In this document: in pieces, positions 1 through 30,615 of the stretch | Position numbering within the stretch: position 1 is the first letter of the stretch | Layout of the letters: each line of letters opens with the position of its first letter | Source of the DNA: Hutsoniella sourekii ATCC 700629 | GTDB taxonomy: Bacteria; Bacillota; Bacilli; Lactobacillales; Aerococcaceae | Direction: 5' to 3' | Assembly: GCF_000518205.1 (NCBI RefSeq) | Contig: NZ_JADD01000024.1 | Location: forward strand, 1 to 34,442 | DNA: 34,442 nt | Notes under the pieces: generated by a model | What the model was told of the DNA's origin: nothing | Databases searched by the model: none | The model's input: the letters and a program-made list of their open reading frames with translations, nothing else | Program-made: the position numbers and the translations under genes

Positions 1-303
1 CTTAGGAAGGTAACCATCAATCCGGAGTGGGAGTACTACAAAGCCAAGCAACGAGAGCTCTTGTCAGATCCAGAATACAGCTTAATATACAGCCTTCGAA
101 AAACGGATGTGGAACCCGCATTCGGACATTTGAAGGCGAATTTAGGGTTCAACCGATTCCATGTAAGAGGAATTGATAAGGTTCATAATGAGATTGGACT
201 GGCGTTAATGGCCACGAACATGAGAAAATTGGCTCTGATCTTTAGAACAAATCAAAAGACCCAGCATTTTTATTCTTGTCGAATAAAAATCTGGGTTTTT
301 TGA
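1..303 (+). CDS. IS1182-type transposase, C-terminal end (cut by window edge)
   Basis: The reading frame is open from the first base, so the visible 100 residues are the C-terminal end of a longer protein; the TTG at 61 is not a real start. The stretch DVEPAFGHLKANLGF, followed by RFHVRG and an NEIGLALMATNMRKL helix, is the typical end of IS1182/IS5-superfamily DDE transposases, in which the Glu of VEPAFG is the third catalytic acid. The enzyme would cut and join the ends of its own element. The last codons overlap a terminator hairpin. The next gene (pucG) ends 49 bp further on and points towards it. Family assignment is by motif memory; IS1182 is most likely. Confidence 0.85.
   Translation, partial: LRKVTINPEWEYYKAKQRELLSDPEYSLIYSLRKTDVEPAFGHLKANLGFNRFHVRGIDKVHNEIGLALMATNMRKLALIFRTNQKTQHFYSCRIKIWVF
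254..301. terminator. Terminator overlapping the transposase 3' end, probably bidirectional
   Basis: A long stem pairs 260-264 plus 266-275 with 281-295 around the loop TTGTC, with one bulged C at 265. Six T follow on the plus strand and AAAA precedes the stem, so it can also end minus-strand pucG transcripts. It lies inside the last codons of the transposase, as is common at IS ends. Confidence 0.75.
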
Positions 304-351
304 GGACTTACCTTACAGCCTCTTTTAAGATTAGTCAATGAGTGGATCCGT

Positions 352-1682: not shown

Positions 1683-1710
1683 TTGCACAAAAAAATTATT
1701 GCGGTATAAT
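1683..1710 (+). promoter_or_regulatory. pucR promoter
   Basis: TTGCAC (1683-1688), a 16-bp spacer and a perfect TATAAT (1705-1710) sit 67 bp upstream of the chosen start. Transcription should begin near 1717, so the TTG codon at 1699 is inside the promoter and cannot be the translation start. Confidence 0.7.
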
Positions 1711-1776
1711 TCCTTTAACATTCCACCACCCTATCTAACTTCTAGGGTTCGGGAAAATATGAAATTGAGGTGCGCC

Positions 1777-3411
1777 ATGACAACTATTTATGAATTACTT
1801 TCAGAGCCCCGTTTCAGTGACATTAAACTCTTAACCTCTCCAGACATTCCAGGACTGGAAATTCAGTCGGTCGAAGTCAGCGAGACGCCTGATGTTGCCT
1901 ATTATATCCCCGAACAAGCGATTATCTTAACGACAGCGATGATTTTCCAAGATGATCAATCTGGCTTGATTGACTATTTAAATTCTATTGACAAAGTCAG
2001 GGTTGCTGGATTAGGGATCAAGACTGGGAGATTCATTGGTGAATTAGATCCAACAGTAATCAACCATGCCAATCAACTGAAAATACCAATTTTTGAAATT
2101 CCAGATACCTACCCTATCGGCTCCTTGTTGCACCAATTCTCCAATGTTATTTGGCAGACCCAACAAGAAGAGATCAACTTTGCTCTAGATATTCAAAAGA
2201 AGTTCTCAAGTCTTCTAATCAATGATGCCCACTATGATGTGGTTATTGATGAATTCAGTCGAACCGTTAATAGTCCTGCCATCTTGGTTAGTCCCTTCCA
2301 CCAAACCATCGTGGCTTCCAAGCACTTTGGTTCAAGCTATCATTCTTGCGACCACTTGGTGGATCAGACCTTCTCTCAGGCCAGTCAGGTTAACAAGAAG
2401 GAAGGCACTTTTCTCATCACCAATAACCAAGGAGAAAAGATTCAGGTGGCTTTGGTTCCTATTTATGTCTACCGGAACTTCCCTCATTACCTAATTATTT
2501 TGCATTCAGAAAAGATTCCTTATCCTTTCTCATCCTTTGCTATCGAGCAAGTGGCGATGGTCTTGAGCTTTATTCTCTTTAAGGATGATAAGATTAGACA
2601 ATCCAAGCAAAATATGGAGACGGATTACTTCAAAGAATTAATTGATACTCAATTATCAGACCGGTCCGAGCACCCGGGTCAACGCTCAATCTTGGATTCT
2701 AAGATGGGCTATATTAAGAGTGACTACTACCAAGCCATCTTGGTCCATGAGGAATCAACTGTGGGGGCTCATTCTCTAACGGTCTTCCAACAAGAAGCTG
2801 TGGATGTGATTACTCTTTGGTTGAAGTATGTCGACCATCCAAGTCTTCCTAGTAATACCCTGGTCATGCCGGAGCCTAATGGTCAAGGAAGTTTGTTGAT
2901 TCTACAACGGAGTCCTCATTTACTGGAGGAAGTGCTCTTTGACTTGGCTAGCGACTTGAGACGGATTCTAGATATCCAGATTGTCTTCAGCGTCGGTAAT
3001 GCTTATGTTCACGAATCACAAATTGCGGAATCCTATTCCCAAGCCCGCCTTGCCTATAATGAACGCAGTCGAACCAATAACCGTCAGGGGTCTATTAGTT
3101 ATTATGAGAATAAGGGAATGTATCAACTCTTCAACCAATTAAACCATAATGAAGTCCAATACTATTGCCGTTCCATTCTCAAGAGCTTCGCCTATCCTGA
3201 AGATACTGGTAGCCAGGACCTCAGAGATACCTTGAAGGCTTACTTAGACAACCAATGCGAGATTGCTCAAACCGCGGCAGACCTATATGTCCACCGCAAT
3301 ACTGTCAAGTACCGGATCCAACGTTGCGAAGAAATCCTCGGTTATTCCGTATCTTCTCCGGATAACTCCTTGAACTTAAGAATAGCCCTGGAGTTAAGCG
3401 AAGAAGGCTAA
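1777..3411 (+). CDS. pucR: PucR-family transcriptional regulator of purine/ureide catabolism
   Basis: A 544-residue cytoplasmic DNA-binding regulator. The N-terminal ~125 residues (MTTIYELLSEP to FEIPDTYPIGSLL) form the purine-catabolism-regulator domain PF07905. The middle has the weakly conserved GGDEF-like sensory region (GNAYVHESQIAESYSQARLAY). The C-terminus carries the PucR-type helix-turn-helix (IAQTAADLYVHRNTVKYRI) after a DLRDTLKAYLDNQ helix. I chose the ATG at 1777 because GAGGTG lies 6-10 bases ahead of it; an ATG at 1759 lacks a ribosome binding site, and the longer TTG frame from 1699 overlaps the promoter. In B. subtilis PucR responds to pathway intermediates such as allantoin or allantoate and activates puc genes. 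Here it probably controls pucG and allE-allD. The effector is not visible from sequence. Confidence 0.88.
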   Translation: MTTIYELLSEPRFSDIKLLTSPDIPGLEIQSVEVSETPDVAYYIPEQAIILTTAMIFQDDQSGLIDYLNSIDKVRVAGLGIKTGRFIGELDPTVINHANQLKIPIFEIPDTYPIGSLLHQFSNVIWQTQQEEINFALDIQKKFSSLLINDAHYDVVIDEFSRTVNSPAILVSPFHQTIVASKHFGSSYHSCDHLVDQTFSQASQVNKKEGTFLITNNQGEKIQVALVPIYVYRNFPHYLIILHSEKIPYPFSSFAIEQVAMVLSFILFKDDKIRQSKQNMETDYFKELIDTQLSDRSEHPGQRSILDSKMGYIKSDYYQAILVHEESTVGAHSLTVFQQEAVDVITLWLKYVDHPSLPSNTLVMPEPNGQGSLLILQRSPHLLEEVLFDLASDLRRILDIQIVFSVGNAYVHESQIAESYSQARLAYNERSRTNNRQGSISYYENKGMYQLFNQLNHNEVQYYCRSILKSFAYPEDTGSQDLRDTLKAYLDNQCEIAQTAADLYVHRNTVKYRIQRCEEILGYSVSSPDNSLNLRIALELSEEG

Positions 3412-3479
3412 TAAACAACCGATTAATCATTCTAAAAATGAAATTATAAGATGAGTCAAAATCGATCAATTAAAAGCTT

Positions 3480-3639
3480 CGAAAAACAAACTTTCCCTCA
3501 GCTGTAGTGGACCGCCTTCAGAGCGCGAACGCTCTTTCCGGCTAAATTGACTGTGCTCTCCCTAAGCGCCATAGGCGTAAGGGAGAGCTATGCGTCAATT
3601 GTCCTAAAACTACTGCTGAGGGAATGTTTGTTTTCTTCG
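3480..3639. repeat. 160-bp cruciform (three-way junction) palindromic element
   Basis: The outer arms 3481-3508 and 3609-3639 pair over nearly their full length, sharing TTCCCTCAGC/GCTGAGGGAA and AACAAAC/GTTTGTT. GGAC (3509-3512) then pairs with GTCC (3601-3604). Inside are two more hairpins. One is AGAGCG-CGAA-CGCTCT (3520-3535), extended by GCC/GGC. The other is AATTGAC (3545-3551) with GTCAATT (3594-3600), enclosing GCTCTCCCT/AGGGAGAGC-type pairing and CGCC-ATA-GGCG. There is no open frame and no strong T-run. It fills most of the 338-bp gap between pucR and allD. It may be a non-autonomous palindromic repeat, a structured RNA, or a barrier between converging transcripts. No second copy was seen in this window. 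Confidence 0.75.
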
Positions 3640-3749
3640 CTATTATCAATTTTCTTTTTTTACTAATAAAGGTTACAAATCTGAACGATTTGTTTTGATT
3701 AAACATGGTGTGAATAACTTATCTCACATTCTTGTTTATGTTTATTGGA

Positions 3750-4817
3750 TTAGTTAGCAAAAGCACTTAGGCCTTCGTATGCGTCATTATGTACCACATC
3801 AGATTCAAGGTATTCCATAATTGATTCAGGGATTTCAGTTCCTTCTTCAAGCGCTTTGTCGTAACGTAAGTTAGAACCTTCGCCTGGGTAACGAACAGAG
3901 CTGAATCCTCCTGCCGGTTTAATGGCATTCAATTCTTCTTGAGTTTGTTGGATGCTTTGTTTGAACTTCTCAGCTCCTACGAATTTCTCTGGATCAATTA
4001 AGATATAGATCTGACCTAAGTAACGACCATCATGGAGATCATGGTACATACTGGTTACATTCTTACCAAATGGAAGTCCCATTAAGACAGCTGCAAGAAC
4101 GTCAACCATCATCATTAAGCCGTATCCTTTAGGCCCTGCAATTGGTACAAGACCAGCTACTGCTTGAGGGTCCGTGGTTGGATTACCATCAGCATCTACT
4201 GCCCAAGTATCAGGAATAGACTTACCTTTAGAGCGAGCATCTAATACTTTACCCCAAGCTTGAACGGTTGTCGCCATATCAAAGATAATTGGGTGAGAAC
4301 CAGCACTTGGTGCACCAAAACCGATTGGGTTCGTTCCATAGTAAGGTTCAGCCCCTCCATAAGGAACAACCATTGGGTCTGATTGAGTCATAGCAATCCC
4401 GATCATATCATACTCAACAATCTTACGTAAGTAATAAGATAGCGTGCCGGTATGGCCACAGTTTCTAACACCGATAACGGCTGCTCCTTGTTCCTTGGCT
4501 AGCTTGATTCCTGGTTCAATGGCTTCATTAGCAACATATTGCCCTTGACCGTTGTCACCATCTAAGATAGCAGTAGCAGGACCTGTTTGTTCCCACTTTA
4601 ATTGTGGATCATGAGTGATCCCACCTTTGGCAATACGCTCAGCATAGTATTCGACACGAACCGCACCATGTGAGTGAACGCCAGATAAGTCTGCATATGT
4701 TAAGTGAGCAGCTGTCTCTTCTGCAGAAGCTTCGTTTAATCCTGCAGCCATTAATTTCTTCTTAATTAAATCATGGAGACGTTGTGCGCTAACTTTTACT
4801 GTTTTTTCTTCAGACAT
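3750..4817 (-). CDS. allD: Ureidoglycolate dehydrogenase (AllD-like)
   Basis: A 355-residue member of the Ldh_2 (malate/lactate/ureidoglycolate dehydrogenase) family, close to E. coli AllD in length. It should oxidise (S)-ureidoglycolate with NAD(P)+ to oxalurate. S49-H50 in SGVHSHG and H122 in RNCGHTGTLSYY correspond to the family's conserved substrate/catalytic residues. The GTNPIGFGAP and PKGYGLMMMVDVLAAVLMG blocks are also typical. The start has AAAGGAGG eight bases upstream. It follows allE by 35 bp and must be co-transcribed with it. The fold alone would allow malate or lactate dehydrogenase; pairing with allE and proximity to pucR and pucG decide the call. Confidence 0.87.
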   Translation of the reverse strand: MSEEKTVKVSAQRLHDLIKKKLMAAGLNEASAEETAAHLTYADLSGVHSHGAVRVEYYAERIAKGGITHDPQLKWEQTGPATAILDGDNGQGQYVANEAIEPGIKLAKEQGAAVIGVRNCGHTGTLSYYLRKIVEYDMIGIAMTQSDPMVVPYGGAEPYYGTNPIGFGAPSAGSHPIIFDMATTVQAWGKVLDARSKGKSIPDTWAVDADGNPTTDPQAVAGLVPIAGPKGYGLMMMVDVLAAVLMGLPFGKNVTSMYHDLHDGRYLGQIYILIDPEKFVGAEKFKQSIQQTQEELNAIKPAGGFSSVRYPGEGSNLRYDKALEEGTEIPESIMEYLESDVVHNDAYEGLSAFAN

Positions 4818-30477: not shown

Positions 30478-30513
30478 AAAAAAACTTCTGTATGCCAAAC
30501 AGACATACAGAAG
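30478..30513 (-). terminator. Terminator after metQ
   Basis: CTTCTGTATG (30485-30494) pairs perfectly with CATACAGAAG (30504-30513) around a nine-base loop, with seven T following on the minus strand. It lies about 100 bp after the metQ stop and 26 bp before the antiporter start. The 30514-30615 stretch between holds nothing I recognise. Confidence 0.9.
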
Positions 30514-30615
30514 CCATTAGCTAGAATTCTAGCGGTTCAACGTCCGCACGTTAGGGAGTGCCTCATTCCCATTTTCTTGATTATAACTAATTTCATCACG
30601 CATTTCAATCTAGGT

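Follow-up and report, generated by a model that had tools for sequence, protein, structure and literature searches.

Between the gene for a PucR/CdaR-type regulator and allD, in positions 1-34,442 of contig NZ_JADD01000024.1 of Hutsoniella sourekii ATCC 700629 (the whole of which we call the window), lies a stretch of DNA in which nearly every base can pair with another. What kind of sequence is this, and how did it come to lie there? The original prediction placed it at 3480-3639 and offered a non-autonomous repeat family, a structured RNA and a transcription barrier between converging genes as candidates. Comparison of the copies described below leads us to regard it as probably a dispersed, non-autonomous MITE-type element with a BOX-like modular make-up, which would be spread in trans by an IS1182 transposase and may also serve as a two-way transcription stop.

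Fold and limits of the element

The hairpin core at 3480-3639 folds with a minimum free energy of -82.7 kcal/mol on the + strand (z -11.9) and -82.4 kcal/mol on the - strand (z -9.0), and on neither strand did any of 200 shuffled sequences reach so low a value. In the predicted fold, an outer stem, P1, closes a three-way junction with a hairpin, P2, and a longer hairpin, P3. Folding and comparison of copies place the 5' arm of P1 at 3483-3512 (+), with an A-rich foot, and its 3' arm at 3601-3634 (+), with a T-rich foot; the stem is irregular at two mismatches and one 4-base bulge. P2 (3514-3542, +), defined in the same way, has the loop CGAA, and P3 (3545-3600, +) carries an internal loop, UAA / YAA, that is conserved among the copies. 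The outer stem of about 28 bp, the two-hairpin junction and the CGAA cap anticipated from the single sequence are thus all found, and no ORF of at least 80 aa overlaps the window copy, in keeping with the predicted lack of coding potential.

The coordinates 3480-3639, on the other hand, hold for the hairpin core and not for the whole unit. Alignment of copies shows that the repeat extends past the core to terminal inverted repeats (TIRs), AGGCTGTNAGATAAGT, and the best match to the family TIR sets the ends of the window's MITE-like unit at about 3441 and 3732 (+), a length of 292 bp. Its left TIR (3441-3456, +) is degraded, with 11 of 16 matches to AGGCTGTAAGATAAGT; taken alone it is at chance, not above the 95% level of shuffles, and it lies in the same place in the alignment as the TIR of intact copies. 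The right TIR (3717-3732, -) has 13 of 16 matches and departs from the search pattern at 2 of the 15 bases that this specifies. Just inside the right end the sequence reads as a small hairpin, ACAAATC-TGAAC-GATTTGT, followed by TTT (3675-3693, +), which can be seen by eye in 10 of 12 aligned copies and is absent from C45 and C9a.

Dispersed copies and optional modules

The H. sourekii genome contains 16 clear copies, dispersed and with unrelated flanks. BLAST of this genome gave 32 matching pieces, which resolve into 15 clear copies and two weak places; the sixteenth copy, a diverged one on contig 6, was located through its terminal repeats. The two weak places, C6:69903 (an 18-base shared stretch) and C6:85855, are excluded from the 16. 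At the latter (L047), a piece of the repeat lies beside an apparent IS3-type element, as if interrupted by it. BLAST against plasmids gave no match.

Short forms with recognisable ends measure 292-300 bp. The best-kept sister copies, C31, C16 and C11, share 94-96% identity across 302-312 bp; their homology breaks off no more than about 17 bp from the TIR ends, at positions that correspond to the ends of the window unit. With such similar copies at unrelated sites, the element appears, as far as sequence comparison can tell, to have been moved around its own genome. Multiple genomic copies, which had been the first thing to look for, speak for a non-autonomous repeat family, as do the IS-shared TIRs of the better-kept copies and the unrelated flanks, and a single-copy RNA peculiar to the pucR-allD locus is ruled out by the further copies.

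Copies differ in which whole hairpin modules they possess. Each of two sequence subfamilies comprises short forms, of the type of the window copy, as well as long ones. The long ones are C1b, C12, C14 and C5; they have one extra hairpin before P3 and another inside P3, shortened in C5; C14 also contains a run of N and has its right part doubled. In C12 and C9c a further hairpin module sits at the tip of P2, and in the very short forms C1a and C10 most of P2 and of P3 is missing. Apart from the modules, identity between short and long forms is 95-96% in the C31 subfamily and 84-91% in the other (C9b versus C1b). Read by eye, the modules are alike, each running stem, UAA, stem, short loop, stem, YAA, stem. 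Optional internal modules of this sort are a trait of BOX elements.

Terminal repeats shared with a resident IS1182-family element

Seven of the 16 copies match the TIR at 13 or more of 16 positions on both sides, and the other nine, including the window copy (11 and 13), fall below 13 at one or both ends. With one mismatch, the same 16-mer stands behind the C-termini of IS1182 transposases on six contigs, and an IS1182-family element on contig 6 is bounded by it on either side. This contig-6 insertion sequence (L078 2953-4724) is a full-length variant whose ends read TATGATAAGT and whose transposase frame is interrupted; the diverged element copy 1.1 kb away from it carries the same TATGATAAGT variant. 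The window itself begins with the 3' end of an IS1182-family element (1-321, +), made up of the transposase C-terminus (61-303) and a right TIR (306-321), and this element is likely to be of the type of the mobiliser. Each IS1182-family copy that we saw is either cut short at a contig end or broken, and all score below the curated cut-off.

Multi-copy insertion sequences tend to break assemblies. The present assembly seems to break at one IS1182-family element, with presumed left or right ends at the edges of the window (1-321) and of C14, C15, C17, C20, C25, C26, C29, C31, C32 and C36. Exact 16-mers at further contig edges are probably the left ends of this same insertion sequence.

The element is therefore short, non-coding and dispersed in multiple copies, with TIRs that match an insertion sequence of the same genome, as expected of a MITE. 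The target site duplications that had also been expected were not found at any of the 16 copies, where the longest direct match between flanks is 2-5 bp. Because target duplications of IS1182 elements vary widely, we do not treat their absence as decisive. At C1b and C11 (L037, L036) the flanks prolong the inverted repeat by 6-7 bases, and the target there was possibly itself a palindrome or hairpin. Taken together, the shared ends suggest a model in which an IS1182-family transposase would act on them in trans and so spread the element.

Conservation of the fold in relatives

BLAST found no copy in any of 40 relatives, the H. sourekii genome aside, and a 22-letter pattern search in the genome-contig collection gave no match. 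Two named organisms, Facklamia languida CCUG 37842 and Ignavigranum ruoffiae DSM 15695, came up in a pattern scan; PMC13303067 places Facklamia in the Aerococcaceae, which identifies the family concerned. A first covariance model was built from seven sequences, namely six copies and the diverged contig-6 copy, and it recovers all 16 places in its own genome, the diverged copy having been found through its TIRs and not by the model before it joined the building sequences. With this model the same branched fold was matched in 21 of 76 family genomes and 13 of 21 genera, H. sourekii included. The element is thus conserved in relatives, where its absence would have told against it.

A second model, built from the matches of the first, matched 34 of 395 genomes and 18 of 80 genera in a sample of the order, again with H. 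sourekii included. Of these genomes, 23 belong to the same family and 11 to two others (f1, f2 and f6 together), and the matches outside the family are weaker, with best E-values of 9e-10 to 4e-5. A sample of the class, which served as a specificity control, gave matches in 3 of 398 genomes: H. sourekii, one of the family and one of the order. The E-values of both models are rough, and the family, order and class searches were run with stricter filters, with eight candidates scored per genome in the order and class samples. A BOX-like modular repeat can therefore be conserved across genera by its shape and be invisible to BLAST (0 of 40 relatives by BLAST against 21 of 76 genomes by covariance model), so that elements of this kind may be under-counted or mistaken for structured RNAs.

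F. languida has 56 matches at E <=0.1 in 1.7 Mb. Many of the matches form inverted pairs about 450-1000 bp apart and so make up long intergenic palindromes. Three of these paired-copy loci (L204 1121-1321, L147 and L213) hold pieces of one decayed frame (MTAIITEGM...FNKSSAAYYEK...). No family matched it above cut-off, the sole Pfam line being C2 at E 0.2, below cut-off, and a search of the 76 family genomes found it in F. languida alone. Copies from four relatives, compared side by side, have ends other than those in H. sourekii, the genome that the search for IS1182-like ends covered. In another relative (G011; L235-L244, L155), the feet GCTTC-AAAAA / TTTTT-CGC resemble by eye those of the H. 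sourekii copies.

Gene context and transcription

The regulator gene (1699-3411, +), with its stop codon at 3411, lies upstream of the element, and allD, for ureidoglycolate dehydrogenase (3750-4817, -), converges on it from the other side. Since the element occupies 292 of the 338 bp that separate the two genes, a terminator of either must sit inside it or in its short edges. A scan of 3380-3780 for promoters and terminators found none. An intrinsic terminator would have a T run immediately after a short GC stem; here a T-rich foot comes after a branched stem of 134 nt. The position of the other copies does favour a transcription barrier between converging genes: 9 of the 16 lie between convergent ORFs, 6 between tandem and 1 between divergent ones (9 rows without an ORF on one side were left out of the tallies). 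On this sequence evidence we consider such a barrier plausible, although the simple scan detected no terminator.

Across 157 distinct matches from several genomes, the 5'-side gene is oriented towards the element in 98 of 152 cases and the 3'-side gene in 66 of 135; 5 of the 5' sides and 22 of the 3' sides could not be assigned and are omitted. The discordant cases number 45 against 26 (p = 0.03), and the median gap between gene and element is 105 bp on the 5' side versus 288 bp on the 3' side. The bias in gene orientation is modest and only suggestive, as the ORF calls are crude and paired copies are not independent. In 7 of the 12 copies of the relative G011 the model core begins 24-58 bp past a stop codon of the same orientation. 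We suggest that insertion would be tolerated mostly behind genes, where an almost purely Watson-Crick hairpin with A-rich and T-rich feet could stop transcription in both directions and might replace or shield the native terminators.

Rfam has no entry that matches the window core at gathering scores; among 12 related loci searched at E <=0.1, the only match is a T-box elsewhere in locus L163. At the gathering scores, the window's sole Rfam match is a fluoride riboswitch aptamer at 30501-30579 (-), with 36 bits.

Covariation and strand symmetry

Mismatches at loop edges, which had merely looked compensating in the single sequence, turn out on comparison of copies to reflect real covariation. 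In a set of 68 sequences (66 distinct), 93.1% of cells pair, versus 61.7% after shuffling, two-sided changes occur in 49 of 53 pairs, and the covariation score is 0.751, versus 0.192 shuffled and at most 0.113 slid. With 123 sequences (109 distinct) the score is 0.809 versus 0.199; on weaker measures, the 49 two-sided pairs of this set were equalled by 27 of 500 shuffles and the further pair types by 1 of 500. The alignments A2 and A4 were drawn from 46 and 95 loci selected among the best matches, and A2 to A4 were fitted to the structure of the model and hence lean towards it. In A1, which was aligned without structure, 23 of 53 pairs show two-sided change, with 2 one-sided cells and 21 broken or gapped ones.

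A G-U pair on one strand is an A-C mismatch on the other, so equal numbers of the two mean that neither strand is favoured. With one often-U-G column left out of each alignment, the G-U and A-C cells number 62:56 of 3326 in A2, 41:42 of 2619 in A3 and 139:112 of 5503 in A4. As a control, 127 tRNAs of the same six genomes, taken from 30 loci, gave 207 G-U and 0 A-C in 2825 cells, a zero that may be too low because aragorn brackets may hide non-standard pairs. The near equality in the element indicates that its pairing is maintained strand-symmetrically. Such symmetry fits a shape held at the DNA level, a function of both strands (two-way termination, for instance) or template-switch repair of palindromes, and it does not fit well with an RNA made from one strand. 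Comparison of F. languida copies points the same way, with 1410 one-sided changes to G-U, 1441 to A-C and 3129 to other mismatches, as sums over divergence bins in which pairs of copies are not independent events.

Of the alternatives, one supposes that covariation is a mutational by-product, template switching having kept long palindromes perfect in a fold without function. Template switching is a known mechanism that can yield compensatory changes, according to PMC8794818, and the equality of G-U and A-C agrees with it. So does the enrichment of adjacent compensated pairs, 0.277 versus 0.087 at 15-20% divergence and 0.105 versus 0.042 at 10-15%. Below 10% divergence, however, the inner neighbour is unchanged in 61 of 65 compensated pairs, and the abundance of other one-sided mismatches implies that correction is far from complete. 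By-product mutation also leaves unexplained the conserved junction, the internal loops and the unpaired bases GGACCGCC, CUA and the UAA loops, which are conserved across genera. We regard it as doubtful that this process accounts for the fold.

If instead the element were a structured RNA, a 3' UTR or a small RNA, its RNA fold would be what is selected and its dispersal secondary. Strong covariation, together with those conserved unpaired bases, is what one would expect of it, as are the bias towards the sense orientation behind genes and one U-G pair kept by 38 of the 66 distinct rows. Of the three original candidates, the structured RNA is nevertheless weakened: strong as the covariation of the helices is, G-U is scarcely more frequent in them than A-C, whereas in the tRNAs it clearly is, and Rfam offers no match. 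Moreover, compensated changes among F. languida copies below 20% divergence comprise 726 transversions versus 506 transitions, and transversions cannot pass via G-U; at unpaired positions the balance is 1289 transversions versus 1672 transitions. Below 10% divergence, however, transitional compensations lead, 41 to 24. On balance, it seems unlikely to us that an RNA fold is what is selected.

An equally improbable reading, in our judgement, is that selection acts on the DNA, as a cruciform or single-strand hairpin that, once extruded, would be recognised by its shape by a transposase, an HUH-type nuclease or a nucleoid protein. The strand-symmetric pairing, the constancy of shape under changing sequence, the conserved strand-specific unpaired motifs and the outer ends that vary between genomes around a constant core fold would all follow from it. 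Against it, no protein partner was found, and the only frame shared between copies, that of F. languida, is decayed and occurs in 1 of 76 genomes. A broader form of the idea, in which a mobile-element family of 18 genera in one order would have its identity in a covarying three-way-junction DNA shape, kept strand-symmetrically and read by a protein, with host-dependent outer ends, strikes us as a long shot of similar standing. That the sequence is an elaborate but ordinary terminator of pucR and allD and nothing more is extremely improbable: its place between convergent genes and its A- and T-rich feet would suit one, but the scan found no classical terminator, and copies at unrelated loci, several with TIRs, refute it as a full account.

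For the MITE-type, BOX-like element that we favour, two causes could keep the pairing strand-symmetric: selection, whether on the DNA itself or on the two strands alike, and template-switch correction as the hairpin is replicated. Strong covariation commonly passes for proof that an RNA is functional. The near-equality of G-U and A-C and the frequent transversional compensation make the present family, with its 56 matches in one 1.7 Mb genome, suited as a natural test bed for asking whether DNA-level selection or template switching can yield RNA-like covariation.

Comparison with known repeats

A literature search, whose coverage did not extend to subscription papers, found no earlier description of the element among the results listed. 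The bcr1-type repeats of Bacillus cereus and REP/BIME sequences, BIMEs holding REPs in alternating orientation, resemble it as dispersed palindromic DNA and probably differ from it in fold. SPRITE, as described in PMC3049150, is one 18-bp duplex with a U-rich tract after the stem, enriched near the 3' ends of convergent genes; our element shares the enrichment and the U-rich tract, and in place of SPRITE's single duplex it has a branched 134-nt fold. The MITEs RUP, Nezha and QMITE2 are, according to PMC3049150 and PMC10969869, short and strongly folded with TIRs common to a resident insertion sequence, as is the element. Unlike them, it shows no target duplication, its nested hairpin modules vary, and its core is conserved across genera while its ends change.

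The closest likeness is to BOX of the pneumococcus and Streptococcus suis (boxA-boxB-boxC, with boxD/E/F variants), which PMC3049150 describes as interspersed, with variable internal modules, a predicted fold and TIRs similar to those of resident ISSpn2. Both repeats are thus interspersed, modular and folded, with IS-type TIRs. Unlike BOX, the element has ends of IS1182 type and not of ISSpn2 type, its three-way junction is conserved across genera, and all 34 matching genomes in the order sample, at eight candidates scored per genome, fall in families f1, f2 and f6. Compared by description and not by BOX sequence, the element works like a BOX repeat but is not one that we would file as BOX.
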